A DNA stretch of 43,498 nt from Bacteroidales bacterium (lineage in GTDB: Bacteria; Bacteroidota; Bacteroidia; Bacteroidales; UBA932), in the NCBI GenBank assembly GCA_017546585.1, contig JAFYWC010000082.1:1-43498 (forward strand), written 5' to 3'. Positions 344-43,498 of this stretch are shown in pieces. The stretch's first letter is position 1. Each line of letters begins with the position of its first letter. The notes beneath the pieces are model-generated. The model was not told the DNA's origin. It ran no database searches and saw only the letters and a program-made list of their open reading frames with translations. The position numbers and the translations under genes were made by a program.

Positions 344-518
344 TGCTTGCTATGGACTACTGCCTGCAATCTATAATCTACACACCTTATGGATGTCTGT
401 TTAATTATTTTATGATATTCTTAACTTGTTAGCTGCTATTTTGTTTTGATTCTTTTACTTGAAAATATAGGGTGATTGTGTGATTTTATATACTGATGTT
501 GGCTTGTTCTCTTCCTGC

Positions 519-583
519 TCGGTGGACAAAACCACCATTCGGTGGATTGTTGGTAGCCCTCTCTTTGATTTATGCTACACTTG
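519..583 (+). promoter_or_regulatory. Candidate LytTR operator and promoter of the LytTR unit
   Basis: The octamer TCGGTGGA occurs exactly twice with a 20-bp period (519-526 and 539-546). The intervening CCACC (532-536) could pair with either copy of GGTGG. Two direct repeats about two helical turns apart is the known layout of LytTR-domain sites such as those of AgrA. A -7-like box TACACTTG (one mismatch from TAnnTTTG) follows at 576-583, about 30 bases after the second repeat. A related site with the same geometry lies at 1993-2056. That LytTR binds here is inference. Confidence 0.5.
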
Positions 584-611
584 AGTTTGTAATCAACAAC
601 ACGATATAGTC

Positions 612-1004
612 ATGAGCATGAAATCAACCAAGAGAAAGACATCTAAGGGTAGTTTCTGCCCTGAACATGTATTTATCCTGCAAGGAAAAGGCGTATACAT
701 ACGCATGGCCGTTGATGATATCACATTTCTCAGAGCAGCTCGGGATTATTGTGAGATTCACATCAAAGGTCAAGACCCCATCCTCGTATCTGTACCGATG
801 ATTGATGTATATCATTGCATTCCGCCAAATAAGTTCATTAGGATTAGTCGTTCAATCGTATTGAATCTCAACTTCATCACGAAAATTGTCGGCAATCAGA
901 TAGAACTGGCAGATGGTACGAGATTATTGATAGGAAAGACCTATCGAGAGGACATACTTTCCGGATTTACTCTGATTGGGTCAAGAAAAAGGTTTGGGAG
1001 ATGA
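612..1004 (+). CDS. Stand-alone LytTR-type DNA-binding regulator
   Basis: This 130-residue protein is essentially only a LytTR DNA-binding domain. It opens with a basic N-terminus, then shows the family pattern DDITFLRAARDYCEIHIK, VSVPMIDVYHCIP, the FIRISRSIVLNLNFI segment (equivalent to the usual RVHRSYIVN) and a final ELADGTRLLIGKTYRE. There is no receiver domain and no membrane segment, so it cannot be a classical response regulator. Its stop codon overlaps the start of a 30-codon membrane-protein gene (ATGA at 1001-1004), implying translational coupling. A direct-repeat site of LytTR type lies in its own promoter, so autoregulation is plausible. The ATG at 612 is used; a second ATG two codons later is equally possible. 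Domain call is firm; partner logic is inferred from the layout. Confidence 0.88.
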   Translation: MSMKSTKRKTSKGSFCPEHVFILQGKGVYIRMAVDDITFLRAARDYCEIHIKGQDPILVSVPMIDVYHCIPPNKFIRISRSIVLNLNFITKIVGNQIELADGTRLLIGKTYREDILSGFTLIGSRKRFGR

Positions 1005-1093
1005 TTGTAATGGTTATCTTTGCTATTGTAAGAATTGCCTTGCTGCTATTCGTATTTATACGCAGAACCATGAAAAGGAAGAATGAAGAATAA
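1001..1093 (+). CDS. 30-residue single-span membrane protein
   Basis: A short gene runs from ATG 1001 to TAA 1091-1093. The product is one hydrophobic helix (roughly residues 2-20, MIVMVIFAIVRIALLLFVFI) followed by a strongly charged tail with RRTMKRKNEE. The positive-inside rule would put the C-terminus in the cytoplasm. It overlaps the stop of the LytTR gene by four bases and the start of the next gene by 11 bases, which is hard to explain unless it is translated. No family is recognised. The position, coupled to a LytTR regulator, suggests it controls or senses for that regulator, but nothing in the sequence proves it. Confidence 0.6.
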   Translation: MIVMVIFAIVRIALLLFVFIRRTMKRKNEE

Positions 1094-1364
1094 AAGACGA
1101 CAGATAGGAATTTCAAGGAAGACTGCGAACAATCTGATATACGCAGTTGCCATATTATATACCCTGATGAATGTTGTAGTGATAGCATTGACCGCACTTG
1201 ACGGCATCGCAGATAGGGAGGAAGTAGCGCATCTGGTGGCACACGCTATCGGTATGGCCGGAGGTCTGTGGCTGTGCTTCTTCATTCCAAAGGAAAGCCG
1301 AAGAGCAGAAGCAGAATGGAAGATGTGGGAGGAGGAACTGGAGGCTATGCCTGAAGAAGACTAA
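1083..1364 (+). CDS. 93-residue two-span membrane protein, possible regulator partner
   Basis: The product has two predicted membrane helices, about residues 16-39 (NLIYAVAILYTLMNVVVIAL) and about 48-67 (VAHLVAHAIGMAGGLWLCFF), joined by a short acidic loop. A basic N-terminus and a highly charged C-terminal tail (KESRRAEAEWKMWEEELEAM) flank them. The gene starts inside the 30-codon gene upstream, so three genes are linked by overlaps. It ends tail-to-tail with the RibD_C-like gene, overlapping by four bases. No named family is recognised. In Firmicutes LytTR Regulatory Systems (HdrRM, BrsRM) a LytTR regulator is co-transcribed with a membrane protein that inhibits it; this pair has that layout, with no demonstrated homology. 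Confidence 0.75.
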   Translation: MKNKRRQIGISRKTANNLIYAVAILYTLMNVVVIALTALDGIADREEVAHLVAHAIGMAGGLWLCFFIPKESRRAEAEWKMWEEELEAMPEED

Positions 1365-1714
1365 CCGATAGGCTCATATCTGTACACAGAGCATACGACA
1401 TCCTCGCGGAAGACCTTCATGCCTTCCAGCACCCAGTGAGTTGGTGACAACTCCGTGCTGAACAGCCTGCATCCCCCTCCGGAAAGATACGGCACTGTAT
1501 AAACAATCAGACGCTCCACCTTGCCATCAGCAAGAAGTCCGCACACATATTCGGCATTCTCAACATCAGCCTCCACAAGAGAATCTTCGCCTATGGCATC
1601 ATAGAACTCATCGATGCCGTACACATCAGAGCGCAGCATCCAACTCCTTTCTGTCCTGTTGTCAGAGAGGCATCCGTCAATTGAAAGTGTTGCCAGGACT
1701 GTTTTCTTCGCCAT
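1361..1714 (-). CDS. Short RibD C-terminal/dihydrofolate-reductase-like protein
   Basis: The 117-residue product carries both ends of the RibD_C (bifunctional deaminase-reductase, DHFR-fold) pattern: ATLSIDGCLSD near the N-terminus, and RLIVYTVPYLSGGGCRLF followed by THWVLEGMKVF and a final VVCSVYRYEP at the C-terminus. The GGG-C-LF segment is the nicotinamide-nucleotide loop of this family. Members are usually about 170-190 residues, so the central part of the fold is shortened here to a ESWMLRSD-like region with DEFYDAIGEDSLVEAD. Either this is a genuinely small variant or an internal deletion product. Substrate unknown. It is transcribed towards the LytTR unit and is preceded by the self-complementary segment at 1745-1886. 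Confidence 0.65.
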   Translation of the reverse strand: MAKKTVLATLSIDGCLSDNRTERSWMLRSDVYGIDEFYDAIGEDSLVEADVENAEYVCGLLADGKVERLIVYTVPYLSGGGCRLFSTELSPTHWVLEGMKVFREDVVCSVYRYEPIG

Positions 1715-1886: not shown

Positions 1887-1992
1887 AACACCTCGCGGTC
1901 TTATGTATGTATATTGTATATCTTGCTGATTCTGATACAAAAGTAGTGAATTTCAAGCAAACATAGCCCATCCCTCTCAAAAAATCTCCCCT

Positions 1993-2056
1993 TTGGTGGA
2001 CGAATCCGTCATTCGCTGAATCCATTTCACGATCCCATTCCCTCCCTCTATCTTCG
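1993..2056 (+). promoter_or_regulatory. Second copy of the LytTR-type site, upstream of the HExxH gene
   Basis: TTGGTGGA (1993-2000) and TCGCTGAA (2013-2020) match TCGGTGGA at 7/8 and 6/8 positions and sit 20 bp apart, as at 519-546. The bases between them are also similar. A -7-like TATCTTCG (one mismatch from TAnnTTTG) follows at 2049-2056, 29 bases after the second repeat, the same spacing as in the LytTR promoter. This suggests control of the downstream gene by the neighbouring LytTR protein. Confidence 0.4.
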
Positions 2057-2113
2057 CAAGCGTAGGTTTACACGGCGGATCCGAAAAGCCGAATAGGAAA
2101 TAGAGTAGGGAAA

Positions 2114-2674
2114 ATGGATCAATATAGTATGATAAAATATGAAATTGCATCTTATTTACATAGGTTGAAAATCCATGTAATAAATAACAGAAGCGAATAT
2201 CCGTCATATTTAACTGATGACGCAATAATGGGTATCACAATTCATTTTGATGATAATGTAGATTCTGCACTTCTGTCAAATGGAATAACAGGATTATGTC
2301 TCAAAGACGGTTTGTCAAGGGAGTGGACGGGTACAAAAGAGAATGATATGCTTATTAGCCTTTCTGCAATCTGTGTGGAGGCTGATGATGCAAAAAAAAC
2401 CAGAGAAGCAGTGATGAAGTCAATCATTACTCACGAGTTTATGCATTCAATATCAGTTGGTTTCGCTGTGGAGAACAATAGCAAAGAGAGTTATTACAAG
2501 GATGAAGCTTATACAGATCATCTGGCACAGAAACTCTTTAATAAACTTTGCACAAGTGAGTTCTACTACACACCGTATCCGTCATTGAGGATTAATGAAT
2601 ACAGCATGGTGAACATTACCGATGAGGGAATACAATGCTATTTCAAAGGTAAAATTAATAGGCCAATGAAATAG
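2114..2674 (+). CDS. Putative zinc metallopeptidase-like protein (HExxH)
   Basis: The 186-residue product has a classic HEFMH zinc-binding motif at residues 107-111, preceded by a helix-like AVMKSIIT and followed by the acidic DEAYTDHLAQ about 23 residues later, which could supply the third ligand as in gluzincins. No signal peptide or membrane helix is visible, so it is probably cytoplasmic. No named peptidase family is recognised; an anti-sigma/ImmA-like regulatory protease or a toxin-type protease are both possible. It is a single gene, with its own terminator at 2697 and an upstream site shared with the LytTR unit. The ATG at 2114 follows GAGTAGGGA, a plausible ribosome contact. Confidence 0.55.
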   Translation: MDQYSMIKYEIASYLHRLKIHVINNRSEYPSYLTDDAIMGITIHFDDNVDSALLSNGITGLCLKDGLSREWTGTKENDMLISLSAICVEADDAKKTREAVMKSIITHEFMHSISVGFAVENNSKESYYKDEAYTDHLAQKLFNKLCTSEFYYTPYPSLRINEYSMVNITDEGIQCYFKGKINRPMK

Positions 2675-26690: not shown

Positions 26691-27497
26691 TTACAGTAGT
26701 TTGGTGATCACGTCCTGGTATTTGCGTGAGATCGGGATGCTCTCGTATCCCTCCTGGCTGAGGTCGGCTACAATGAGTCCCGAACTGTCTCTGTGGACGA
26801 TTCTGATGAACTCGGGATTGATGAAGTATGACCTGTGGCATCTTACCAGACCGTGTCTTGAAAGTGTGTCCTCTAATGCCCTCATAGATGAGCGGAGGAT
26901 GAATTTCTTCGGCTTGTTTCTGTCGAGATAATGTATCTGGACGTAGTTGTCTTCTGACTTGATGAACATCACCGCTTCTGCTGCTATGACTATGCGCAGT
27001 TTCCTGTACTCGTCATAGAAACGGATCAGCGAATTGTCCTCCAGACTTTCCTGCGCCTCCTCTGTCTTTGAAAAGAGTTCGAGGCCGAGCCAAAGGAATG
27101 CGTATGGATAGACGCAGGTAGCAGAGAGCATAATGAACGCAGAACCTACAAATTCGAAGAATGATACGGCGTCCTTGTACATAAGTACGATATACAGCGA
27201 CATCAGGAGAGTTGCCACAAGCATCTCTCCGATGCACCACGCAAGGTAGGCTGTCTTGGAGATCTTCCTGTATTTTCCGATCAGGTACAGCCAGCCTCTC
27301 AGGATTGATACGGTGACAAGCACGATGCAGAAGAGAATGGTCACATTGAACGCGAACGAAGCCTGTTCTGTCTGCAGAAATTCATATACGCCGTGCGGCT
27401 TGTAGTAGATCGTGAAGATAAGAGCGAACAGCGGCACTATTATCGAATGCATTATCGTGCTGGCTCCTGAAGTTATGGTGTTTGCGCTGTTTTTCAT
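26691..27497 (-). CDS. Membrane-anchored LytTR transcriptional regulator
   Basis: The start is taken at ATG 27495-27497, since the longer frame uses TTG. The 268-residue protein has four hydrophobic helices in the first 140 residues (such as IIVPLFALIFTIYY and FEFVGSAFIMLSATCVYPYA) and a C-terminal LytTR domain (about 165-268: FIKSEDNYVQIHYL, LRSSMRALEDTL, LVRCHRSYFINPEFI, IPISRKYQDVI). There is no receiver domain, so it senses through the membrane or a bound ligand. It is first in the operon with UbiA and radical SAM, so it probably controls or reads out their product. A -7 box TATATTTG lies 18-25 bases before the start. Confidence 0.88.
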   Translation of the reverse strand: MKNSANTITSGASTIMHSIIVPLFALIFTIYYKPHGVYEFLQTEQASFAFNVTILFCIVLVTVSILRGWLYLIGKYRKISKTAYLAWCIGEMLVATLLMSLYIVLMYKDAVSFFEFVGSAFIMLSATCVYPYAFLWLGLELFSKTEEAQESLEDNSLIRFYDEYRKLRIVIAAEAVMFIKSEDNYVQIHYLDRNKPKKFILRSSMRALEDTLSRHGLVRCHRSYFINPEFIRIVHRDSSGLIVADLSQEGYESIPISRKYQDVITKLL

Positions 27498-27514
27498 ACC
27501 CAAAATTTTAGGTA

Positions 27515-29889: not shown

Positions 29890-31236
29890 GTGACTTTGGA
29901 CACTCGTCACGCCTCTCGAGAAGGTAAGCTTCCTGTGGCCATATGTTTCCATCAACAAGGTAAGAAGTGGTACTATCATCTGGATATGAAGCTCACAGGT
30001 GATGAGTTTATCAGTGTCTGTAAAGCCACCGGAAGAGGACGCGTTCCAGCAAATTTTGTCGGAGATAGGCCATACGATATCAAGCTTAAGCTTGAGGCGG
30101 AGTTTGATAAGTATTATAGTATGGTGGAATCTCTGAGTCACTCTAAGAGATTGACCATTCCCGCAATCAAGACAATGATAACAGGCGTTGGAGATGAAAT
30201 CAGTTTCTTGAAGGTGTGGGAAGCGGAGTGTAAGAAGAAGTCTATAGGTACCGAGGCCAACTATCGTGCAGCTAAGAATTCGTTCGTGAAGTATCTTGGC
30301 GAGATAAAAGGTTTTAGAATTACAGCTGCTGATATCCAGAAGTGGTGTGATTCATTGGTTGCAGATGGCATATCCAAATCGACAATAGGAATGTATCTTC
30401 GCTCGTTTCGAGTGGCTTGGTATGCTTGTGAAAAACTTGGGTATGTTCTTCATGTTGATTATCCTTTCGGCAAGGATGATGAGCTGGTTTCAATACCAAA
30501 GGGTAATACTCGTAAGTCATTTTATCTTACAGTGGAGCAGATGACAGAGCTGTATAACTGTTTCCTTGAAAAGCGTTATCCGGAAGAATGGGATGTTGAT
30601 TGGAGAGAGAACACCCATTACTCTCTTGGTCTTTTCCTTGTCCAGTATCTTGGCAATGGATTCAACTTGGCTGATGCTGCTCACTTGACATATAATGATC
30701 ATTATTTTCAGGGTGGAAAGAAGTCGTTCCAGTTTGTCCGCCAAAAGACGGAGGACAGAAGTGATAACGAAGTTGTGATTCCAATCATTCCTCCATTGCA
30801 GGCTATCCTTGATCAGATTGCTGCCCCTCCTATCAAGGGATCTTTGGTGTTTCCTGGCATTTATGGTGATGCACAAACGCCAATCGAAAAGAGGAAGCGT
30901 GTTGCTATGGAGAACCAGAACATTAAGAAGCGTATCCGTCGTCTTGTCAAGAGTATGGGCTGGGAAGTACAACCGAGCTGTACGTGGTGCAGACACTCTT
31001 TCGCAACCAACCTCACCCATGCCGGAGTTCCTCACAACTATATATCCGAGAGTATGGGTCACTCTGTAGACAATAATATCACTAATCGTTATATTGATGC
31101 CTTCCCTCTTGCCCAACAGATGGAGTTCAACTCGAGACTCTTGAAGTTGAATGGTGAGCCGGATATCATGGAGGAACTCAAAGGCCTTACTCCAGAGCAA
31201 CTGAAGGTCTTGATTGCATTGGCGAAGAATGCTTAA
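29890..31236 (+). CDS. Tyrosine recombinase (integrase), 5' end disrupted
   Basis: The 448-residue frame from GTG 29890 holds an arm-binding start (RVTLDTRHASREGKLPVAIC), a SAM-like core-binding domain and a catalytic domain with Arg368 in TWCRHSFATNL, MGHSVDNNITNRYID and nucleophile Tyr401. The first catalytic Arg position appears as Asn in YLGNGFNLADAAHL, as in some Bacteroidota members. The coding signal continues upstream of 29890: the same frame has ATG 29830 but a TAA at 29854-29856, while ATG 29802 reads MKDIELNKGNESSRFPVLKS in another frame and would join this one if the A7 run at 29863-29869 lost one base. So the gene is frameshifted, uses slippage, or restarts at GTG. Terminator at 31265. 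Confidence 0.85.
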   Translation: MTLDTRHASREGKLPVAICFHQQGKKWYYHLDMKLTGDEFISVCKATGRGRVPANFVGDRPYDIKLKLEAEFDKYYSMVESLSHSKRLTIPAIKTMITGVGDEISFLKVWEAECKKKSIGTEANYRAAKNSFVKYLGEIKGFRITAADIQKWCDSLVADGISKSTIGMYLRSFRVAWYACEKLGYVLHVDYPFGKDDELVSIPKGNTRKSFYLTVEQMTELYNCFLEKRYPEEWDVDWRENTHYSLGLFLVQYLGNGFNLADAAHLTYNDHYFQGGKKSFQFVRQKTEDRSDNEVVIPIIPPLQAILDQIAAPPIKGSLVFPGIYGDAQTPIEKRKRVAMENQNIKKRIRRLVKSMGWEVQPSCTWCRHSFATNLTHAGVPHNYISESMGHSVDNNITNRYIDAFPLAQQMEFNSRLLKLNGEPDIMEELKGLTPEQLKVLIALAKNA

Positions 31237-31264
31237 TTGCTAACACGCTGTATTTTTAATAGGG

Positions 31265-31323
31265 CGATACTCAGCCAAAATCGATGTGTTTGATGCGATT
31301 TTGGCTGAGTATCGTATGTTTTT
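31265..31323 (+). terminator. Integrase terminator
   Basis: A perfect 19-bp stem (31265-31283 with 31296-31314), 12-base loop, then TATGTTTTT. It separates the integrase from the cargo gene. Confidence 0.93.
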
Positions 31324-31335
31324 CGTAAAAATCAC

Positions 31336-31343
31336 TATCTTTG
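31336..31343 (+). promoter_or_regulatory. -7 box of the ATPase gene
   Basis: TATCTTTG lies 16 bases before the ATG at 31360. The expected -33 position falls in the terminator tail and shows no TTTG. Confidence 0.45.
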
Positions 31344-31359
31344 AAGAAAAATTAAGACC

Positions 31360-32784
31360 ATGAGAGACAGTATCGTAGGACGTAAGATTGAAAAAGCGGA
31401 GTTGGATAAGATTTTCAATTCTGCAAAGGCGGAATTTCTGGCAGTTTGCGGTAGACGTAGAGTCGGAAAGACCTTTCTTATCAAAGAATATTTTGAGAAA
31501 GAGTTGGTTTTTTCCGTGTCTGGTCTAGCAAAGGCTAATACGCAAAAGCAGATAAAGAATTTTTATTCTACTCTGAAACTCTATGATTCGTCATTGACAG
31601 AAAAGCCAAACGATTGGCTGGATGCCTTCAACCTCTTGATTAAATACCTGACCTCTCTTCCGCAAGAGAGGAAAGTGATCCTTTTGGATGAGCTTCCATG
31701 GATGGATACCCCAAAGTCTGGGTTTATATCTGCGTTGGAACATTTCTGGAACGGCTGGGCGTCTTCTCGTCGTGATATTGTTCTGATAGTGTGCGGATCT
31801 GCAACCTCATGGATGATGGACAACCTGATCAATAATCATGGTGGACTTCATAATAGATTGACACGACAGATATTCCTGGAGCCGTTTACTTTGAATGAAA
31901 CGGAACAGATGCTGGAATCTTTAGGATTCAATCTCTCTCGCTATGAGATTGCTGAGTATTATATGATACTTGGAGGAATTCCTTATTACATGACATTGTT
32001 GAATCCTGATGAAAGTGTTGCACAGAATATAGATAGACTGATTTTCAAACGTAATGGTGAACTTAAGAATGAGTTTGATAATCTTTATGCTGCTCTCTTC
32101 AGAAATTCGGAAAGCTATATAAAGGTAGCCTCCATCTTAAACTCAAAGCGTTCTGGACTTACTAGAAACGAGATTAAGGAAGAAGCTAAACTTCCTTCCG
32201 GAGGCACTCTTACAAAGATTCTGAAGAATATGGAGTCTTGTGGTTTCATACGCAAGTTCAACTGCATCAGTTTGGGTAAGACGCAGACTCTATATCAACT
32301 TGTGGATTTCTTTTCCCTCTTCTATTTCAGATTCATGCAGCACGAAACCAGCAACAAGACAAATTACTGGAGTGCAATACAAGGCACTCAGAAGTTCTAT
32401 GCTTGGGCAGGACTAGCGTTTGAAAATGTGGCCTTATATCATATCAGTCAAATAAAGCACACACTGGGAATCAGCGGGATTGATTCCGAAGAATATACTT
32501 GGCGTAAAGACTCGAATGAGACAGACGGTGCTCAGATTGACCTACTCATTGATAGAAAGGATAATACTATAAACCTTTGTGAGATGAAGTTCTGCGAAAG
32601 TGTATATGAACTTAAGGCAGACGAGGAGATGAAGCTTAGAAATAGAATAAGTGCCCTTAGGTCATCTTTGAAGAAAAAGACTAAATCAATCCAACTTACT
32701 ATGATTACTTCTTTTGGCGTTGCCAAAGGTAAGCATTCCGGTATTGTTCAAAGCCAGGTGGCATTGGATGACTTATTTGCTTAA
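31360..32784 (+). CDS. AAA ATPase fused to a DUF234/nuclease-like domain
   Basis: The 474-residue protein belongs to the archaeal-type ATPase (ATPase_2) plus DUF234 family. It has a P-loop at residues 31-38 (GRRRVGKT), Walker B KVILLDELPWMD, a sensor-like IVLIVCGSATSWM and a winged-helix region (SGLTRNEIKEEAKLPSGGTL). The C-terminal part has GAQIDLLIDRKDN followed by CEMKF, a D...ExK pattern like PD-(D/E)XK nucleases. Members are common on mobile elements of Bacteroidota and archaea; their role is unsettled. Here it is a single gene between the integrase terminator and the iterons, so it looks like cargo or a defence/maintenance gene. Cytoplasmic; no membrane segments. Confidence 0.85.
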   Translation: MRDSIVGRKIEKAELDKIFNSAKAEFLAVCGRRRVGKTFLIKEYFEKELVFSVSGLAKANTQKQIKNFYSTLKLYDSSLTEKPNDWLDAFNLLIKYLTSLPQERKVILLDELPWMDTPKSGFISALEHFWNGWASSRRDIVLIVCGSATSWMMDNLINNHGGLHNRLTRQIFLEPFTLNETEQMLESLGFNLSRYEIAEYYMILGGIPYYMTLLNPDESVAQNIDRLIFKRNGELKNEFDNLYAALFRNSESYIKVASILNSKRSGLTRNEIKEEAKLPSGGTLTKILKNMESCGFIRKFNCISLGKTQTLYQLVDFFSLFYFRFMQHETSNKTNYWSAIQGTQKFYAWAGLAFENVALYHISQIKHTLGISGIDSEEYTWRKDSNETDGAQIDLLIDRKDNTINLCEMKFCESVYELKADEEMKLRNRISALRSSLKKKTKSIQLTMITSFGVAKGKHSGIVQSQVALDDLFA

Positions 32785-32835
32785 TTCAATGATTCAGAGA
32801 TAAAGTGACTTTAATGTTTAGGACTTGTTGGAATT

Positions 32836-32926
32836 TTGTCCCAAGTCTATCATATTGTAAATCAGTGGGATAACGGTAGTTTGTCCCAAGTCTTGTCCCA
32901 AGTCCGGAACAAGTTGTCCCAAGTCT
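32836..32926 (+). repeat. Four 13-bp iterons
   Basis: TTGTCCCAAGTCT occurs at 32836, 32881 and 32914, and TTGTCCCAAGTCC at 32893 (sharing one base with its neighbour). All are in the same orientation, ending eight bases before the ATG at 32935. Shorter related copies (AGTCCCAATT at 33971, TTGTCCCAATT at 33991) lie after that gene. They fit an origin or an autoregulatory operator. Confidence 0.85.
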
Positions 32927-32934
32927 GAAATAAT

Positions 32935-33966
32935 ATGGAAAACGCTAAAAATAGTAAGGAGAGAGAAACCTATTTCTGCACTCTGTGCAATATGATCTCC
33001 ACTTGTACCTCAGACATATCCTTGATATTGGATCAGGGACGGCATTATCTGGTAACCCAGGTTCATGTATATAATTTGTATCGTGAGCTGGGTAATCTGA
33101 AGTATGCCAGAGACGAGTGGAAATTCTTTAGTGAATATGAAGATCCTGTCAGAGTCAAGACGGGTAGGGATGTTATTTTACAGGCAATAGAGGTCTTCAA
33201 AAACACCTATGAGGAAAACAAAGACAAACTGTCAGCCTTGTTTAGTGTTGACGATGTGAGGGATGATTTTGAAGAGGCTACTGACGAGTTGCGTATAAAT
33301 GTCGGTGCAGCACTGACGTATGGCTATCGGGCAAAAGTTGTGGACCTTTTAGATGTACTATATCGATTTATTGAAAGGAGCCCTATAGCTGAATATGACA
33401 TTTTGGCGGAGCTAGAACAATCTAAACCAGAGGAGACCCCTGATATCATAGAAAACTATATAAAGGAAGAGATAGTCGAGGATGAAATAGATACAGAGGT
33501 TGATGTAGACGATGACGATACAACTGAAACAGATGACACGTCTTGGATGCTACCTGCTGGTGAGTATTTCTCCGCTGAATTCCTAAGTAGGTTATTGGAA
33601 GCTCTTAACGATGACCTGGAGGATAATTATACAGTTTTTGGGTGGACATGTATATGGAATCTCTATAATGTCAATGGTCCTATCAGTATGAAGACTTCTC
33701 AAAGGGGACCGAAGGGCACTGGAACGACCAAGCTATATTATCTGATTTATAAAATGGCAGAACACTTGAGTAAAGACAATTCTAAAAAGGCAAAACTTTG
33801 GGAACAAACCATTGTTGCCAAGATGGGATTGAGCTGGAGAACCTATAAGAAAGGAGCTGCCAAATGTGCCAATCCGAAAGAGCAATCTGACAAACCGTCA
33901 TATATAGTCTATGCCAAAAAGCTTCAGGAATTCTTTAAAACCGGCGGAATGTCAGTTGAGCCATAG
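32935..33966 (+). CDS. Unknown protein encoded directly after iterons
   Basis: The 343-residue protein has a helical N-terminal half with YFCTLCNMISTCTSD, a very acidic middle (EEIVEDEIDTEVDVDDDD, about residues 180-197) and a basic C-terminal part (TSQRGPKGTGTTKLYYLIY; KKAKLWEQTIVAKMGLSWRTYKKG) that could bind nucleic acid. No family is recognised; it is not a RepA or RepB type by eye. The iterons that end eight bases before its ATG, and similar ones after it, suggest that it binds them and controls its own expression or element replication. It ends with a terminator at 34091. No membrane segments. Confidence 0.75.
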   Translation: MENAKNSKERETYFCTLCNMISTCTSDISLILDQGRHYLVTQVHVYNLYRELGNLKYARDEWKFFSEYEDPVRVKTGRDVILQAIEVFKNTYEENKDKLSALFSVDDVRDDFEEATDELRINVGAALTYGYRAKVVDLLDVLYRFIERSPIAEYDILAELEQSKPEETPDIIENYIKEEIVEDEIDTEVDVDDDDTTETDDTSWMLPAGEYFSAEFLSRLLEALNDDLEDNYTVFGWTCIWNLYNVNGPISMKTSQRGPKGTGTTKLYYLIYKMAEHLSKDNSKKAKLWEQTIVAKMGLSWRTYKKGAAKCANPKEQSDKPSYIVYAKKLQEFFKTGGMSVEP

Positions 33967-34090
33967 TTGGAGTCCCAATTACTGTCTTAGTTGTCCCAAT
34001 TAGAAAATAAAGTTCATTGATTATCAATAAGATACGTTTTTAAAACATTCGCATTTTTCCCAATTTGCTCCCAGTAAATGCGTCGCTTCT

Positions 34091-34126
34091 TGCATGGTAA
34101 GACCACAAACTTATCATGCATTTTTT
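34091..34126 (+). terminator. Terminator of the iteron-associated gene
   Basis: TGCATGGTAAG (34091-34101) pairs with CTTATCATGCA (34110-34120) with one G-T pair, then TTTTTT. Confidence 0.85.
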
Positions 34127-34155
34127 GTTTTAAAACTAATTAACATTAAAAAACA

Positions 34156-34458
34156 ATGGACAATAAGATTTTTACCAACCCAGCCATTGTCACTGTCCAG
34201 ATGAGTATCGAAGAATACATGGAGAGAGAGGCACAGAAGGCTCAGCAGCAGGAAGCTGCGAAGCCTCGCAATCTGGTCTACGGACTCAAAGGAATCGAGC
34301 AGCTTTTCAACTGCAGTACCACAACTGCGTGGCGCATCAAAAACAGCGAATGGATCAAGCCGGCAATCTCCCAGGTGGGAAGAAAGATTGTCGTAGATGC
34401 TGATCTTGCTCTCGAACTTGCTCATCAGAATACCGAGCGTATTACCTATAAGAAATAG
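34156..34458 (+). CDS. DUF3853-type helix-turn-helix protein (excisionase-like)
   Basis: The 100-residue product has a variable N-terminal 40 residues, then the DUF3853/MerR-like helix-turn-helix pattern: YGLKGIEQLFNCSTTTAWRI, the recognition helix region IKNSEWIKPAI, then QVGRKIVVDADLALELA. Such proteins sit beside mobilization genes in Bacteroides elements and resemble excisionases in size and fold. It may direct excision by the integrase or regulate the mobilization genes that follow. It is preceded by a terminator and followed by a non-coding segment that looks like oriT. Confidence 0.82.
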   Translation: MDNKIFTNPAIVTVQMSIEEYMEREAQKAQQQEAAKPRNLVYGLKGIEQLFNCSTTTAWRIKNSEWIKPAISQVGRKIVVDADLALELAHQNTERITYKK

Positions 34459-34500
34459 GTTGCGCTCGGGCAGAAAATCACTGACAAATATGGTAATTGT

Positions 34501-34598
34501 CTCCACTTTATGTGGAGCAAGAGGGAATGGCACTCAGCGTACCATTCTGTCTCTTGCCTTGCAGGTGCAAAACAGCGCTGCGCTACCTTCTGACGGTG
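34501..34598 (+). other. Candidate origin of transfer (oriT)
   Basis: The 189-base gap before the mobilization genes holds a hairpin CTCCAC/GTGGAG (34501-34517), a nested one with GCAAGAG/CTCTTGC (34517-34523 with 34551-34557) enclosing GAATGG/CCATTC (34525-34530 with 34542-34547), and a GC-rich palindromic CAGCGCTG in GTGCAAAACAGCGCTGCGCT. Inverted repeats directly upstream of relaxosome genes are the usual oriT position. The nick site cannot be read. Confidence 0.4.
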
Positions 34599-34647
34599 AT
34601 TTGACTGCCGGAATGAGCACATCTAGGAACTATAAAAGTTTTATAAG

Positions 34648-35052
34648 ATGGGAAAGAGATCCAAAAGCAGAAAAATGACCAGTGTCAGTGCGTATGAACA
34701 TACGCGTGACTTGATCAATCGAGAGGCAAAAAAGCTCAATATGACCCAGGCCGATTACCTTTCTGATCTGATGGAACGTCAGGTCAGAAAGAACAAGGCT
34801 GAGGCAATCAATGGGTCATCGTCTTCGGATGACGACAAGGTTGCGACCATAGGAGATATCAAGAAAATCTTCAAGAAAGGGATTCAGGATATCGAGCAAT
34901 CCAACAAGGGACTCATCGAGAGAAGAGAGAAAAGTAACGATTCTCTCAAGTCAAGCATCGATGCGAGCACAGCGGTCCAGAAGGAATTAATGAAAATAAT
35001 CAAAGGAGAAGACAATGAACGTAAAGATCCAGAACAAGGCACCCTTTTCTAG
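34648..35052 (+). CDS. Relaxosome accessory / mobilization protein (BtgA/MobC-like)
   Basis: The 134-residue basic protein has a ribbon-helix-helix-like N-terminus (KMTSVSAYEHTRDLINREAK and LNMTQADYLSDLMERQVRK), then a Ser/Asp-rich linker and a long charged helix, ending in EDNERKDPEQGTLF. This pattern is that of small DNA-binding partners of Bacteroides relaxases such as BtgA. It would bind oriT (probably 34501-34598) and help the relaxase. Its 3' end overlaps the relaxase gene by 38 bases, so both are translated together. Confidence 0.7.
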   Translation: MGKRSKSRKMTSVSAYEHTRDLINREAKKLNMTQADYLSDLMERQVRKNKAEAINGSSSSDDDKVATIGDIKKIFKKGIQDIEQSNKGLIERREKSNDSLKSSIDASTAVQKELMKIIKGEDNERKDPEQGTLF

Positions 35053-36769
35053 TGATAACAACACTGGGACATGCAAAGGATATGTGACGTATCTGCAGCA
35101 TGAAAAGGAAGACAAGGAGAAGGCCGGTATCCTGGGAGAGGATATCCCGTTCTTCGATGCATTTGGAGATGAGGCCGACGCGAAGTCGGTAATAGACTCC
35201 ATAGACGGCAACAAGAAGCAGCTTCACAAGACAGACACGAAGTACTACTCCAACATCATCAGCTTCTCAGACGAAGAAACTGCTCTCATGGGTGATACCA
35301 GAGAGCAGAGGTTGAAAGCGACTCATGCCCTCGTGGCAAAGATGATGGACGCGTACGCACGTAACTTTAATCATGACGGAGTGAGGTCCAGAGAAGATTT
35401 GCTGTTCTATTACACCATTCATGAGTATAGAGGCAATGCTTCTGCACTTAAGCCAGGCTTGCATGTGCACATGATCATCAGCAGAAAGGATAGGAGCAAT
35501 ACCTATAAGCTTTCTCCGATGACCAACCATCGCAAAGGTACCTCCGGAGTTATCAAGCATGGCTTTCATAGGAATGACTATTACAGGGAGTGCGAGCGCA
35601 TCTTTGACGAACACTTCAAGCATGAGCGTTCCGTAGAGCAGAGCTTCGACTACTGCAATGCTATGAGGCACGGTACTGAGGAGGAAAGGGCGGAGCAGCT
35701 CAGGCGTTATGTCGCAGAAATGAACCTAGAAAAGCTGATTACCGAAGAAAAGGTGCAGCTTTGGAGAAAATATGCGGAAGAAGCAGCATCCCAATACTCT
35801 CGTAAGGGAGATACTCCTGAAGAGCAGGAGAAGATCCGTATGAATCTATTCTGGAATACTTACCACAGCCATTATAAGCCAATGCTGGATTCCTTGAAAG
35901 CTGATTGTCAGATGGCATTCAAAAGATATGATGTTGCGAAGAATAGCGGTGCCATGAATGCGGAGCATCTTGATGCGGAGGTACATAAACTAAGGAGATG
36001 TTATGCTCAGATTGAGTCCCTAACGGACGAAATTACCAGAGCAAACAACAGTAAGAAATTCCTTGCAGTGTTCTCTCTTTTGATTTCTGCCATCAATCCA
36101 GTACCAGCAATCTTGCTGATGGTTATGGGTGGCCTAGTGCTAGGATTTCAGAAGAACGTTGCATTCAGAAGTCGATTGATTCTGTATAATAATGCGAGAT
36201 CAATAAGACGTAATGTGATGTCACTCAAAGAAAAGCAAGAGGCATTGCGACATTCCAAGAATGATGCTCTCCGCAAGTACATTTCTGTAAAAGATCAGCG
36301 AAATGATCTGAAGAATGAACTCAGGAATCTTGATAAGACCCTTATGGAGACAGGAATCAATCTTGAGATTAATCCTGCTAGGGAAAGGGCGAGAGATGCA
36401 AAACTGTCTAATCCTCTCAGAGGAAATCTTCTCCTTGAAGATATGCTGCGTACTATATTCAATGCCAGTTATGATAGTGACAGCCTAGATAGAGAATTGT
36501 ATTATAACGCTTTGGCGTGCTTGCCTGTAATCCATCCTAATGGAGGTATCGCAGATTTAGAGTTCATACGAGGAGAAGAGCGTATTCTGGTTAGTGAACT
36601 CAAGGATCATCGCATAGCAACATTCTTTGTGGACAGGTGGTGTAGCTTGAGGGGATTAACCCCGGCTTACAAGAAACAGACAGAGCGGCCAAGGAACCAG
36701 CAGCAGGCGCAGAAACCAGTACAACAACAAATTAACAAGCAGAACAATGGACCGAAACATAAACGCTAA
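35015..36769 (+). CDS. Relaxase/mobilization protein with an internal membrane hairpin
   Basis: The 584-residue protein resembles Bacteroides mobilization relaxases of the BtgB/DUF5712 type. The catalytic part has KYYSNIISFSDEE (candidate tyrosines) and the metal-binding His set H136 in TIHEYRG and H150-V-H152 in LHVHMIIS. From about residue 349 to 378 there is a strongly hydrophobic pair of segments (FLAVFSLLISAI and AILLMVMGGLVLGF) around NPVP, so it may be membrane-associated. A coiled-coil region and a C-terminal domain (LRGNLLLEDMLRTIF...) follow, then a Gln-rich tail. It overlaps the accessory gene by 38 bases and the primase-like gene by 23. Function by motif; the membrane hairpin is unusual. 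Confidence 0.8.
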   Translation: MNVKIQNKAPFSSDNNTGTCKGYVTYLQHEKEDKEKAGILGEDIPFFDAFGDEADAKSVIDSIDGNKKQLHKTDTKYYSNIISFSDEETALMGDTREQRLKATHALVAKMMDAYARNFNHDGVRSREDLLFYYTIHEYRGNASALKPGLHVHMIISRKDRSNTYKLSPMTNHRKGTSGVIKHGFHRNDYYRECERIFDEHFKHERSVEQSFDYCNAMRHGTEEERAEQLRRYVAEMNLEKLITEEKVQLWRKYAEEAASQYSRKGDTPEEQEKIRMNLFWNTYHSHYKPMLDSLKADCQMAFKRYDVAKNSGAMNAEHLDAEVHKLRRCYAQIESLTDEITRANNSKKFLAVFSLLISAINPVPAILLMVMGGLVLGFQKNVAFRSRLILYNNARSIRRNVMSLKEKQEALRHSKNDALRKYISVKDQRNDLKNELRNLDKTLMETGINLEINPARERARDAKLSNPLRGNLLLEDMLRTIFNASYDSDSLDRELYYNALACLPVIHPNGGIADLEFIRGEERILVSELKDHRIATFFVDRWCSLRGLTPAYKKQTERPRNQQQAQKPVQQQINKQNNGPKHKR

Positions 36770-38978
36770 AATAATCTCCTTCTATCGGGCTCCCATTTCC
36801 AACTGCAAGCCCGAGAAGGAAATGTCCCTTAAGGAAATATGCGACTTCATTAAGAATGAACGCTTGGGGATTCTGATTAAATTTCGAGGCATAAAGGATG
36901 AGAGGGAGGCAAGGTCATATAAGGCAAGCAAGTTTGATCATTGCACATTCTCTGGACTCTTTACTTATCGTAAGGAGGAATGTTTGGTGCAGCATTCGGG
37001 ACTTCTGTGCTTGGATTTTGATCATCTGGATGATGTGGAGTCCGTCTTTCAGCAGCTGATTGCAGATCCGCGATGTCCGACGGCACTCCTCTTTAGAAGT
37101 CCATCAGGGGATGGGCTGAAATGGGTTGTGCCTATAGATGTGACTCATATGTCTCATGAAGGCTGGTTCAATGCGCTGTCGTCCTATGTTCACGACACCT
37201 ACGGATTGGAGGCGGACGGTCATTGCAAGGATGTCTCTAGAGCCTGCTTCCTTCCGCGAGATCCGGATGTATACATGGATGAGCATGTCTTTGAAAAGCC
37301 GATTTTTGTGCCAGATCTTACGGAGGAAGAGCCTGAGGATGCTGCGTGCGAACTTGCAGAAGACCACTTTGAGACAGTCGTCAGGAAGATTGAGGAAGCT
37401 CAAGTTGATATCGCTCCAGGATATTCAGAATGGCTCAGTCTTGGCTTTGCCCTCAGCGATTGCCTCGGAGAGGATGGCCGTGAGTACTATCATAGACTAA
37501 GCCGGTTCAATGAAGAGTATGATGAGCAGAATACTGATAAGCAATACGACAGCTGTCTGAAAGCCAAGAAGGATGGAATCACCATCGGAACCTTCTTTTA
37601 CTTGGCGAAGAAAGCAGGGATTGATATAGGAAAGATAGAGGTCCAAGTACCGGCTTTTACTCCACAGGTATATGATAACCTGCCGTATCTGCTGCAACAG
37701 ATCTGCGACAAAAGCCAAAATGCCGATGAAGCGGATATGATGATCTTAGGTGCCATATCCGCAATCGCTTCAACCATCAGTAACGTTTCAGGTCTGTATG
37801 GTGGTAGGAAAGTCTTTCCTAATCTTTTTACCTATGTGGTGGCTCCGGCCTCGGCAGGTAAAGGACGATTGGCTCTAATCAGAAATTTGGTTCAACCTAT
37901 ACACGACCAGTTGCGAGAGCTGAATAAGTTGGAATTGGAGCGATACTATGAAGAGTTTTCTCAGTACAAGCAAGCCAAAGATCCTGATATGGAAAAACCT
38001 GTTGCTCCACCAATGAGGATGCATATAATCCCTGCTAATACTAGCGCGACAGCTATGTGTCAGATACTTCATGACAATGGAGGAGTGGGGTTTATGATGG
38101 AGACAGAAGGTGATACCCTCACCAATACGCTGTTGTCGGATCATGGAAACTATTCTGATGTGCTGAGGAAATCATTTCATAACGAGCCGGTATCCTATCT
38201 GAGGAGAACGAATCATGAATATGTCGAAGTGCTTGAACCGCAGCTCTCGGCCTTGCTTTCTGGTACTCCAGGGCAGATTAGAAAGCTGATTCCAGATCCC
38301 GAGAACGGTCTGTTCAGCAGATTCATGTACTACTATCTTCCGATGAAACCCGATTGGAACGATGTCTTTGCGGACTCATCGGATGTTTCTTTGGATGATG
38401 CGTATGCTACCCTTGGAAGGGAGTGGCATGATGTCTATCATAGGATTTCAAGGTTTGAGCATATTCGCTTCTCATTTACCCCTCAGCAGCAGGCACAGTT
38501 CAATGACCATTTTGCTATCCTTCATGAAGAATACCTTCAACGTTACGGGGAAGGGTTTCTTTCTTCCGTTCGCAGGATGGGCTTGATTGTATTCAAGATT
38601 TCAATGGTCTTGTCGCTCATAAGATGTATGGAGTTTGCAGACGAAAGTGCGGAATTCATATGCGAGGATGCCGATTTCAGTGTTGCTCTGACCATTGGAG
38701 ATGTCCTTCTTGAGCATTCTGCCAAATTCTACCTTACATTTCCATCTACTTCAAGTGAAAGAAAAAGAAGTTCCTATCGACAAAGAGAAGTAGAAAACAA
38801 GAAAAGGATAATAGCTGAACTACCGAATGTATTTCAACGTAAGGAGGCCATTGAGTTGGGTAAAAAGTATGGAGTTTCACCGAGCACTATCAAGCGCTTG
38901 CTTGATACGCCTCAATTTGTCCACTTAGGATTAGGAAAGTATGCTAAAGTGTCTGCTTCTGATCCAGTGAACCAATGA
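36747..38978 (+). CDS. VirE_N / PriCT-2 / DUF3987 primase-helicase-like protein
   Basis: The 743-residue protein has three parts. Residues about 25-190 are a VirE N-terminal (BT4734-like) domain with SGLLCLDFDHLDD and FRSPSGDGLKWVVPID, similar to the catalytic Asp sites of primases. About 205-290 is a PriCT-2-like helical region (YSEWLSLGFALSD; CLKAKKDGITIGTFFYLAKKAG). About 310-650 is DUF3987, with APASAGKGRLALI resembling a P-loop and ETEGDTLTNTLLSDHGNYSD. The C-terminus has a helix-turn-helix-like AIELGKKYGVSPSTIKRLL. Likely role: element replication or a transfer primase. It ends at TGA 38976-38978, inside the hairpin at 38972-39013. Confidence 0.85.
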   Translation: MDRNINAKIISFYRAPISNCKPEKEMSLKEICDFIKNERLGILIKFRGIKDEREARSYKASKFDHCTFSGLFTYRKEECLVQHSGLLCLDFDHLDDVESVFQQLIADPRCPTALLFRSPSGDGLKWVVPIDVTHMSHEGWFNALSSYVHDTYGLEADGHCKDVSRACFLPRDPDVYMDEHVFEKPIFVPDLTEEEPEDAACELAEDHFETVVRKIEEAQVDIAPGYSEWLSLGFALSDCLGEDGREYYHRLSRFNEEYDEQNTDKQYDSCLKAKKDGITIGTFFYLAKKAGIDIGKIEVQVPAFTPQVYDNLPYLLQQICDKSQNADEADMMILGAISAIASTISNVSGLYGGRKVFPNLFTYVVAPASAGKGRLALIRNLVQPIHDQLRELNKLELERYYEEFSQYKQAKDPDMEKPVAPPMRMHIIPANTSATAMCQILHDNGGVGFMMETEGDTLTNTLLSDHGNYSDVLRKSFHNEPVSYLRRTNHEYVEVLEPQLSALLSGTPGQIRKLIPDPENGLFSRFMYYYLPMKPDWNDVFADSSDVSLDDAYATLGREWHDVYHRISRFEHIRFSFTPQQQAQFNDHFAILHEEYLQRYGEGFLSSVRRMGLIVFKISMVLSLIRCMEFADESAEFICEDADFSVALTIGDVLLEHSAKFYLTFPSTSSERKRSSYRQREVENKKRIIAELPNVFQRKEAIELGKKYGVSPSTIKRLLDTPQFVHLGLGKYAKVSASDPVNQ

Positions 38979-41767: not shown

Positions 41768-42835
41768 ATGCAAGTGAATAAGGGAAAATTGATAATAGAA
41801 GTCACTCAGGCTCTGATCTGGGCCTGTCTGTGTCTGCTGCCGTCAGTCTTGGTCTTCATGGTTTTTCATGATATATGGACATCCTGGTGGACTTTCAAGG
41901 TCATGTTGATTTTCGTTCTTCCTCCGCTTGTGGTCTATTTCGTAAACTACTATCTGTTGATTAACAGATATCTGTTCACAGCTCAGTACGCCAAGTATAT
42001 TTTCCTGAACATTTTTCTGCTGCTGTTGACAACAATTGTAAATAATAATCATCAGGAATGGACAACTGCAATCCCTGAAAAGATTTCCGGAGATGTACCT
42101 GCAAATATCATCAATGTCGGAATATCCGGCTTTCTTGTCCTGGAACTGATATTTCAGGTAATGGTCATTCTGATGGCAGTGGGAATGAAGAGTGTGATCA
42201 GGTGGAATGAAGAAAAGCATGCGATGGAGGAGGAGAGAAGGCGCAACGCAGAGGCAGAATTGAACTGGCTCAAAAATCAGCTTAATCCTCATTTTCTCTT
42301 CAATACCTTCAATAATATATCGTCGCTCACTCTTATTAACCCGGACAGGGCTCAGGAGTGTATAGGAAAGTTGAGTGAACTGCTCAGGTATGCTTTGTAT
42401 GATACCAATGCCGGAAGGGTAAGGGTTGTCGATGAGGTGGTATTCATGAGGAATTACATCGACCTTATGTCCCTGAGGTGTAATGAGCATACAAGGATAT
42501 GCACAAAATTTGATGACTTCGACTCAGGATTGACAATGCCGCCTCTGATGTTCATCTCTCTGATAGAGAATGCATTCAAGCATGGGTCATCATCTCATGT
42601 CGATTCGTTCATCAGGATTGATATGGGACTCGATGGTGACGACCTTGTCTTTTCATGTGAGAATACCTATCACGAAAGGGAGGCTGAGATGCAGAGCGGA
42701 TCCGGAATCGGTCTGGAAAATATGTTGAGAAGGTTTGAATTGCTGTATCCTGACATGTATTCATATACTCAGTTTGTGGAAAATGGCAGTTATGTCGCGA
42801 TAATGAGAATAAAGAATATGATCAGTCATGACTAA
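41768..42835 (+). CDS. LytS-type sensor histidine kinase
   Basis: The 355-residue protein has four membrane helices (about residues 14-32, 43-64, 76-94 and 118-140), a charged linker (EEKHAMEEERRRNAEAELNW) and the His_kinase domain QLNPHFLFNTFNNI with the phospho-accepting H175. The ATPase part has PPLMFISLIENAFKHG (N box) and GSGIGLENMLRRFELLYPD (G box). This is the LytS/YehU class that pairs with LytTR response regulators. It lies 12 bases after the barrel gene and overlaps the response regulator by eight bases. The signal could be state of the envelope or barrel protein; that is inference. Confidence 0.92.
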   Translation: MQVNKGKLIIEVTQALIWACLCLLPSVLVFMVFHDIWTSWWTFKVMLIFVLPPLVVYFVNYYLLINRYLFTAQYAKYIFLNIFLLLLTTIVNNNHQEWTTAIPEKISGDVPANIINVGISGFLVLELIFQVMVILMAVGMKSVIRWNEEKHAMEEERRRNAEAELNWLKNQLNPHFLFNTFNNISSLTLINPDRAQECIGKLSELLRYALYDTNAGRVRVVDEVVFMRNYIDLMSLRCNEHTRICTKFDDFDSGLTMPPLMFISLIENAFKHGSSSHVDSFIRIDMGLDGDDLVFSCENTYHEREAEMQSGSGIGLENMLRRFELLYPDMYSYTQFVENGSYVAIMRIKNMISHD

Positions 42836-43498
42836 GATCAGTTGCATAATTGTTGATGATGAGCCTCTTGCTGTAGAGATGCTGTCGGTCTATGTTCAAA
42901 GGACAGAGACTTTGCAGCTGCTGTCCACATTCACTGATTCTGTTCAGGCTTTCTCGGTCATATCCCAGCAGAAACCGGATCTTGTCTTCATGGATATACA
43001 GATGCCGGACCTCAATGGTATGGAATTGTCACGCCTTCTCCCGGAAGACACTCGTGTGATATTCACGACTGCATTCAAGCAGTTCGCCTATGATAGCTAC
43101 CAGGTGGAGGCTGTCGATTATCTCCTGAAACCGATCAGCTATCAGAAGTTCCTGGAAGCAGTGGCAAAGGCTGAAAAATGGTTCCAAGTGAGCCGTGCAT
43201 CAGGGTCTGATTCCAGGGAGAGGAGGTCTGCCTTCATCAAAGTCGACGGCGGATACAGGAACATATACTTTGATGACATCGCATATGTCTCCGGAATGAA
43301 GGATTATGTAATGATACATCTTGATTCAGATCCGACTCCGCTTATCACACATATGACCTTGAGGACCGTGGAAGATATGCTCCCGTCTGAAATGTTCATG
43401 CGTGTCCACAGATCTCACATTGTCGCCCTGGACAAGATCATGTCGATTGACAGTTTCGGAGATATCATGCTGGCTGGGTCGACTGTCCCTGTCTCAGA
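42828..43498 (+). CDS. LytTR-family response regulator (3' partial)
   Basis: From ATG 42828 the frame runs off the window, giving 223 residues. A receiver domain (IIVDDEPLAVEML; phospho-accepting Asp56 in VFMDIQMPD; TTAFKQFAYDSY; DYLLKPI) is followed by a linker and a LytTR DNA-binding domain (AFIKVDGGYRNIYFDDIAYV; HMTLRTVEDML; FMRVHRSHIVALDKI). It overlaps the kinase gene by eight bases, so the two are translationally coupled. It is presumably activated by that kinase. It is likely only about 20-30 residues short of complete. Confidence 0.93.
   Translation, partial: MTKISCIIVDDEPLAVEMLSVYVQRTETLQLLSTFTDSVQAFSVISQQKPDLVFMDIQMPDLNGMELSRLLPEDTRVIFTTAFKQFAYDSYQVEAVDYLLKPISYQKFLEAVAKAEKWFQVSRASGSDSRERRSAFIKVDGGYRNIYFDDIAYVSGMKDYVMIHLDSDPTPLITHMTLRTVEDMLPSEMFMRVHRSHIVALDKIMSIDSFGDIMLAGSTVPVS

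Follow-up and report, generated by a model that had tools for sequence, protein, structure and literature searches.

A LytTR regulator gene with an overlapping 30-codon membrane ORF and shared repeat sites in a Bacteroidales genome: a candidate LytTR Regulatory System-type switch

Introduction

Near the start of the window (the whole 43,498-nt stretch of Bacteroidales DNA analysed here), a gene for a LytTR-only regulator runs into two small ORFs for hydrophobic proteins. This raises the question of whether the locus is a switch of the LytTR Regulatory System (LRS) type, which of the small proteins would be the partner of the regulator, and which genes would respond. In the accessible part of Zou 2018 (PMC6193735), LRS regulators are described as activators held by a membrane partner, and LRS without homology to the Streptococcus mutans proteins are admitted as types; for HdrRM, the available part of a second report (PMC13384398) gives membrane sequestration as the mode of inhibition. 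An earlier note on this DNA proposed LRS-like logic, with both membrane proteins as one unit.

Results

Genes and coding evidence in the LytTR operon

The three genes that the note had described and their overlaps of 4 and 11 nt are confirmed, in agreement with the Pfam match (PF04397) and with hydropathy. G451 below is a second genome of the same genus.

612..1004, plus strand: LytTR-only regulator, 130 aa; Pfam PF04397; 51% alike orthologue in G451
1001..1093, plus strand: 30-residue single-span membrane peptide; ATGA overlap with the regulator gene; counterpart in G451
1083..1364, plus strand: 93-residue two-span membrane protein; codon usage supports coding; so far in this genome only
1361..1714, minus strand: convergent 117-aa gene; weak RibD_C-like match (23.4 bits, cut-off 24.1); 69% identical and in the same position in G451

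PF04397 matches residues 30–115 of the regulator with 38.8 bits (cut-off 22.6), and no second Pfam family is found at E<=0.1. With PF04397 alone in 130 aa and no receiver domain found by Pfam, the protein is a receiver-free LytTR-family regulator, as in LRS, and not a two-component response regulator. The ATG of the ATGA overlap is the start codon of the 30-codon ORF, which in turn shares 11 nt with the 93-codon ORF. All membrane spans given here are read from Kyte-Doolittle hydropathy in place of a dedicated TM predictor; the scan finds one hydrophobic segment in the 30-mer (peak 3.16) and two in the 93-mer (peaks 2.42 and 1.74). The 30-mer is very short and strongly hydrophobic, with a basic tail that the positive-inside rule puts in the cytoplasm. 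Codon usage supports the 93-aa frame as coding (score 0.17, against 0.26 +/- 0.12 for real 93-codon stretches and -0.12 +/- 0.14 off-frame). It favours neither the 30-mer frame (-0.04) nor the LytTR gene itself (-0.06).

Several other features of the window were recorded. Upstream of the 117-aa gene, positions 1737–1925 form a strong hairpin (z -4.65; equalled by 0 of 200 shuffles) with no Rfam match, and the 379-nt stretch around it, which also contains a 44-codon minus-strand ORF nearly unchanged in G451, is 83.9% identical to that genome. There are six other LytTR genes in this genome. A second LytTR protein in the window (26691–27503) has a hydrophobic N-terminal half, and at 41768–43498 a histidine-kinase-like gene precedes a third LytTR gene interrupted by the contig end. 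The region 29890–38978 looks like an integrated mobilisable element, with integrase-like and ATPase-like ORFs and one resembling a DUF5712 protein on contig C29, all named by eye.

The regulator and the 30-mer in a second genome

At a threshold of 1e-10, LytTR matches occur in 24 of 400 same-genus genomes, this one included; the collection contains over 400 of the genus. Only G451 stands out, with a 128-aa orthologue (51%, 7.9e-38); the best other match among 150 relatives, this genome counted, reaches 2.3e-13. The G451 gene lies on a 4.6-kb contig that reads, in order, period-20 repeats, LytTR gene, 30-aa ORF (TAATG overlap), convergent 117-aa gene, a repeat-bearing site equivalent to P2 (below), DUF805b leader and HExxH gene. 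Matches in named genomes were set aside, as they fall in frames of 236–867 residues that look to us like response regulators or a longer protein. No LytTR match was found in phages, and 30 plasmid records carry distant LytTR genes. Downstream of a 172-aa LytTR gene in another genome (G029), no small membrane ORF was seen.

At the G451 locus, the 93-aa gene is missing between the 30-aa ORF and the 117-aa gene, and the 93-mer has no relative in 150 genomes, viral contigs, the examined loci or plasmids. One viral match (L080) was rejected, as it covers 14 residues only. The 30-mer and its G451 counterpart share a weak similarity beyond composition (10 of 2000 shuffles as good); in an ungapped comparison, 36 of 90 nucleotides are identical, with 12, 13 and 11 of 30 alike at the three codon positions and no excess at any of them. 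What speaks for the 30-mer is instead that its position, length, overlap and hydrophobic pattern recur in the two genomes and that such an ORF is rare after other LytTR genes. Among 31 LytTR loci (those with enough downstream sequence of 46 taken, the window's own locus excluded), a small hydrophobic ATG-started ORF with a start-stop overlap follows the LytTR gene at one, the G451 orthologue; another locus (L123) has only GTG/TTG-started ones.

These observations bear on the simplest alternative, a plain autoregulated LytTR activator or repressor with small ORFs that are incidental or serve another purpose. The codon usage of the 30-mer frame, the weak similarity of the two peptides and the isolation of the 93-mer are all compatible with it. 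That length, position, overlap and hydrophobic pattern should be the same in two genomes whose regulators are 51% alike, and that the single comparable ORF among the other loci should belong to the orthologue, argue against it, and we consider this alternative quite improbable. Judged by sequence, the conserved core is the LytTR gene with the 30-mer, and the 93-aa protein is a lineage-specific addition. The expectation in the earlier note that the small genes would be conserved is borne out for the 30-mer, which keeps its place, length, hydrophobicity and overlap in the sole orthologue, and fails for the 93-aa gene, which leaves the idea of the two membrane proteins as a unit unsupported.

Repeat sites and promoter geometry

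The exact octamer repeats at a 20-bp period that the note had described upstream of the operon are present: TCGGTGGA occurs at 519–526 and again, 20 nt on, at 539–546. They belong to longer repeats (site P1), and a second site of the same kind (P2) lies beyond the 117-aa gene.

518..546, plus strand: P1 direct repeats CTCGGTGGA (518–526) and TTCGGTGGA (538–546), period 20; kept in G451
576..583, plus strand: P1 -7-like box TACACTTG, 55 nt after the first GGTGGA; identical in G451; putative promoter element
about 1992..2021, plus strand: P2 direct repeats TTTGGTGGA (1992–2000) and TTCGCTGAA (2012–2020), period 20; kept in G451
2049..2056, plus strand: P2 -7-like box TATCTTCG, 54 nt after the first GGTGGA; putative promoter element

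The P1 repeats have a 9-11-9 layout in both this genome and G451, with the probable promoter position taken from the -7-like box. A single octamer pair is weak evidence; what lifts it beyond chance are three exact composite sites in the genome and the period-20 pair upstream of the G451 orthologue. The assembly (2.49 Mb, 95.6% complete, 163 contigs) was searched with the 29-nt composite TYGGTGGA-N12-TYGSTGRAT at up to three mismatches, a pattern drawn from the two window sites, so that only the third exact match is independent. It occurs at 51 places (3 exact, 1 with one mismatch, 1 with two and 46 with three). The reversed pattern matched at 25 places in total, and an off-register control with an 11-nt gap gave 54, the best with two mismatches. 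By an order-1 Markov model 0.007 exact sites are expected, against the 3 observed. The third (P3) is on contig C29, with a DUF5712 gene on one side and a DUF2589 gene on the other. The DUF5712 product is, in our reading, a mobilisation protein; ORF names given without a family search are likewise ours. When all 51 places were inspected, a box TAnnYTYG was found 54–55 nt past the first GGTGGA at all three exact sites and at none of the 48 others, one of which has it at offset 51; the chance of a box at one given offset is 0.0008. A site with one mismatch (C45:20630) was rejected, having no -7-like box at the offset and resembling an ordinary promoter of its own, as were two places with three mismatches to the first pattern (on C155 and C64) in what is apparently coding sequence.

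The three exact sites precede the LytTR operon (P1), the adjacent HExxH gene (P2) and an unlinked DUF2589/N-acetylmuramidase operon (P3). The two sites beyond P1, which the earlier note missed, therefore point to a small regulon and not to self-regulation alone. In three promoter pairs (P1 and P2 against G451, P3 against another genome, G358), repeats and box are identical at 69 of 78 positions and the intervening DNA at 56 of 118. The associated Fisher p of 1.4e-9 overstates the difference, because the footprint core was chosen after the promoters had been seen, and the useful part is the drift of the spacer. In alignments of the promoters within this genome, shuffles did equally well or better in 1 of 1000 cases for P1/P2, 5 for P1/P3 and 930 for P2/P3, so that P2 and P3 have only the repeat cores in common. 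The first pattern was matched in 68 of 300 same-genus genomes, and the reversed control likewise matched many; composite plus box was found at none of 19 loci examined from those 300 genomes, the remaining places being judged from the matched letters. Across 160 records examined (636 kb), the strict composite pattern picks out only the six promoters that make up the three pairs.

Genes behind the second and third sites

2072..2111, plus strand: DUF805b RNA (RF02914) leader, 37.9 bits, gathering cut-off 35.6
2114..2674, plus strand: HExxH protein, 186 aa as listed, HEFMH motif; behind P2 and the DUF805b leader

The true start of the HExxH gene is perhaps the ATG at 2129, because the remaining 26 DUF805b copies that precede an ORF have its start 18–43 nt on. 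The protease-like protein has no match in Pfam, NCBIfam, PHROG, PADLOC or PDB sequences and no relative among 60 other genomes, and its structure model (mean pLDDT 32.7) is of no use. The protein in the same position in G451 (272 aa) gives a global alignment no better than chance, equalled by 52 of 500 shuffles; over a local stretch of 36 residues, HExxH and DEA are identically spaced in the two (score 50; 4 of 1000 shuffles as good). The G451 leader scores 34.8 bits, just under the cut-off. DUF805b is present in 49 of 80 genomes, 30 of them over the cut-off, and such a common leader is therefore not specific to this switch. Among 30 loci read, it stands mostly (28) 18–24 nt ahead of start codons of unrelated genes, and several copies in one genome (L166, G060:C125) precede short ORFs with a GG-type leader look. 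A literature search found nothing under DUF805b.

Behind P3, the gene order is DUF2589 (273 aa, 98.8 bits), a 259-aa protein with no Pfam match, DUF2589 (202 aa, 67.6 bits) and a PG_binding_1 plus N-acetylmuramidase protein (238.3 bits; a PHROG endolysin). The end of contig C29 cuts the 259-aa gene, and C2 carries a gene with the same start, so the operon is presumably continuous across the two. A near-identical operon is present in G056, on a contig that stops short of the promoter, and in G358 the first gene is 95% identical and preceded by repeats at period 21 and the same box. In MT839761.1, a faecal clone of 4,044 bp, the first gene is 78% identical, the rest of the operon is present and the site is absent. 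Although this record (L119) was deposited as phage (‘Bacteriophage sp.’), it contains the DUF2589–muramidase operon alone. The composite site was not found at the DUF2589 clusters of five further genomes (G060, G003, G130, G148 and G304). A six-match PF11655 array stands behind an endonuclease/exonuclease/phosphatase-type gene in G003 (L116, G003:C63), and on a Deltaproteobacteria and a Vibrio tubiashii plasmid (L203 and L204) DUF2589-like genes and genes annotated as peptidoglycan-binding are no more than about 3 kb apart. From one DUF2589 cluster to another, the partner genes seem to change.

This genome alone combines the LytTR gene with the muramidase operon: no LytTR orthologue was detected in G358 or G056, both 74% complete, and G451, at 95% completeness, yielded no muramidase operon of this type. 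The presence of the target operon in two genomes with no detected orthologue, and the six other LytTR genes here, would suit a different regulator reading the repeats in place of this LytTR protein. The modest completeness of G358 and G056 weakens the first point. Direct repeats of ~9 bp with 11–13-bp spacers are what LRS LytTR proteins bind, and the LytTR gene lies between P1 and P2 in each of its two genomes, which makes a different regulator a very improbable explanation.

Discussion

Based on gene order, repeat geometry and conservation in a second species, we propose an LRS-type switch, to which we would give an even chance: the LytTR protein would activate three transcripts and the 30-mer would most likely inhibit it, the 93-mer being lineage-specific. 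The regulator is predicted to bind the ~9-bp direct repeats (TTCGGTGGA type, period 20–21), the second copy of which lies 34–35 nt upstream of the -7-like box. It would activate its own operon, giving positive feedback, as well as the neighbouring HExxH gene through the DUF805b leader and, in this genome, the unlinked DUF2589 / 259-aa / DUF2589 / N-acetylmuramidase operon; the shared sites suggest such control of both. The 30-residue peptide most likely keeps the regulator inactive at the inner membrane via its basic tail, and a membrane or envelope signal would free the regulator from the peptide.

The muramidase in the putative regulon lends real weight to the main rival, in which the 30-mer, perhaps with the 93-mer, is an output and not an inhibitor. 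Like a holin or a small hydrophobic toxin, it would perturb the membrane while the co-regulated muramidase cuts the wall, in a lysis or release programme. Small membrane toxins are short, hydrophobic and basic-tailed, and the 30-mer, a short and strongly hydrophobic peptide with a basic tail, resembles them. The muramidase behind the third site is of phage type, and a cell-death pathway is under LRS control in S. mutans. Against this, the overlap with the regulator gene and the conserved order fit an LRS regulator–partner pair, and the peptide is kept in G451, where the muramidase operon of this type was not found; on balance we regard the output role as rather unlikely. A broader version, a programmed lysis-and-release circuit, appears more doubtful still: the 30-mer would be its whole sensor or holin-like arm, and the regulon would join the phage-type muramidase/DUF2589 operon to a fast-changing HExxH protein. 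With the same low confidence, the 30-mer would in that version be the smallest LRS-type partner known to us.

If the LRS-type switch is correct, a LytTR switch can have a membrane partner of only 30 residues. Gene finders usually pass over genes this short, and such circuits in Bacteroidota may therefore have been missed. The shared site would also propose a regulator for the DUF2589 proteins and for the family-less HExxH protein, and would tie both to a muramidase, so that their role becomes testable.

Comparison with known systems

As for HdrRM and BrsRM, in the account available from Zou 2018 (PMC6193735), a soluble LytTR regulator is encoded upstream of a membrane protein, and the repeats, ~9 bp with an 11-bp spacer just upstream of the promoter, are of the same length and spacing class. 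A membrane protein directly downstream of the regulator is found here in two genomes, namely the 30-mer, its span given by hydropathy. The LRS-like logic suggested in the earlier note holds in these respects: the regulator is soluble and LytTR-only, a membrane ORF overlaps the downstream end of its gene, and the repeats are present. It does not extend to the form of the partner: the LRS partners in the published material at hand are larger and have DUF3021 or DUF2154 or 3–4 spans, whereas the proteins here have no such Pfam match and one (30-mer) or two (93-mer) spans. The HdrRM/BrsRM sites, as given in the same portion of that report (PMC6193735), read ACCACTTAT-like, in contrast to TTCGGTGGA on the coding strand here, perhaps in the other orientation.

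The LRS-like operons of Bacteroides thetaiotaomicron and B. ovatus, as far as covered in the same source (PMC6193735), are closer in taxonomy, belonging to the class Bacteroidia, and share the 11-bp repeat spacer and a TATCTTTG-type -7 box. They differ in gene order, the membrane protein (NfeD-like and DUF2154) preceding the regulator, and in a LytTR regulator that itself contains membrane segments. In Caulobacter HigX, a transmembrane LytTR regulator described in the accessible part of PMC13384398, LytTR output is likewise tied to the membrane, but in one fused protein, where the present locus has separate overlapping genes.
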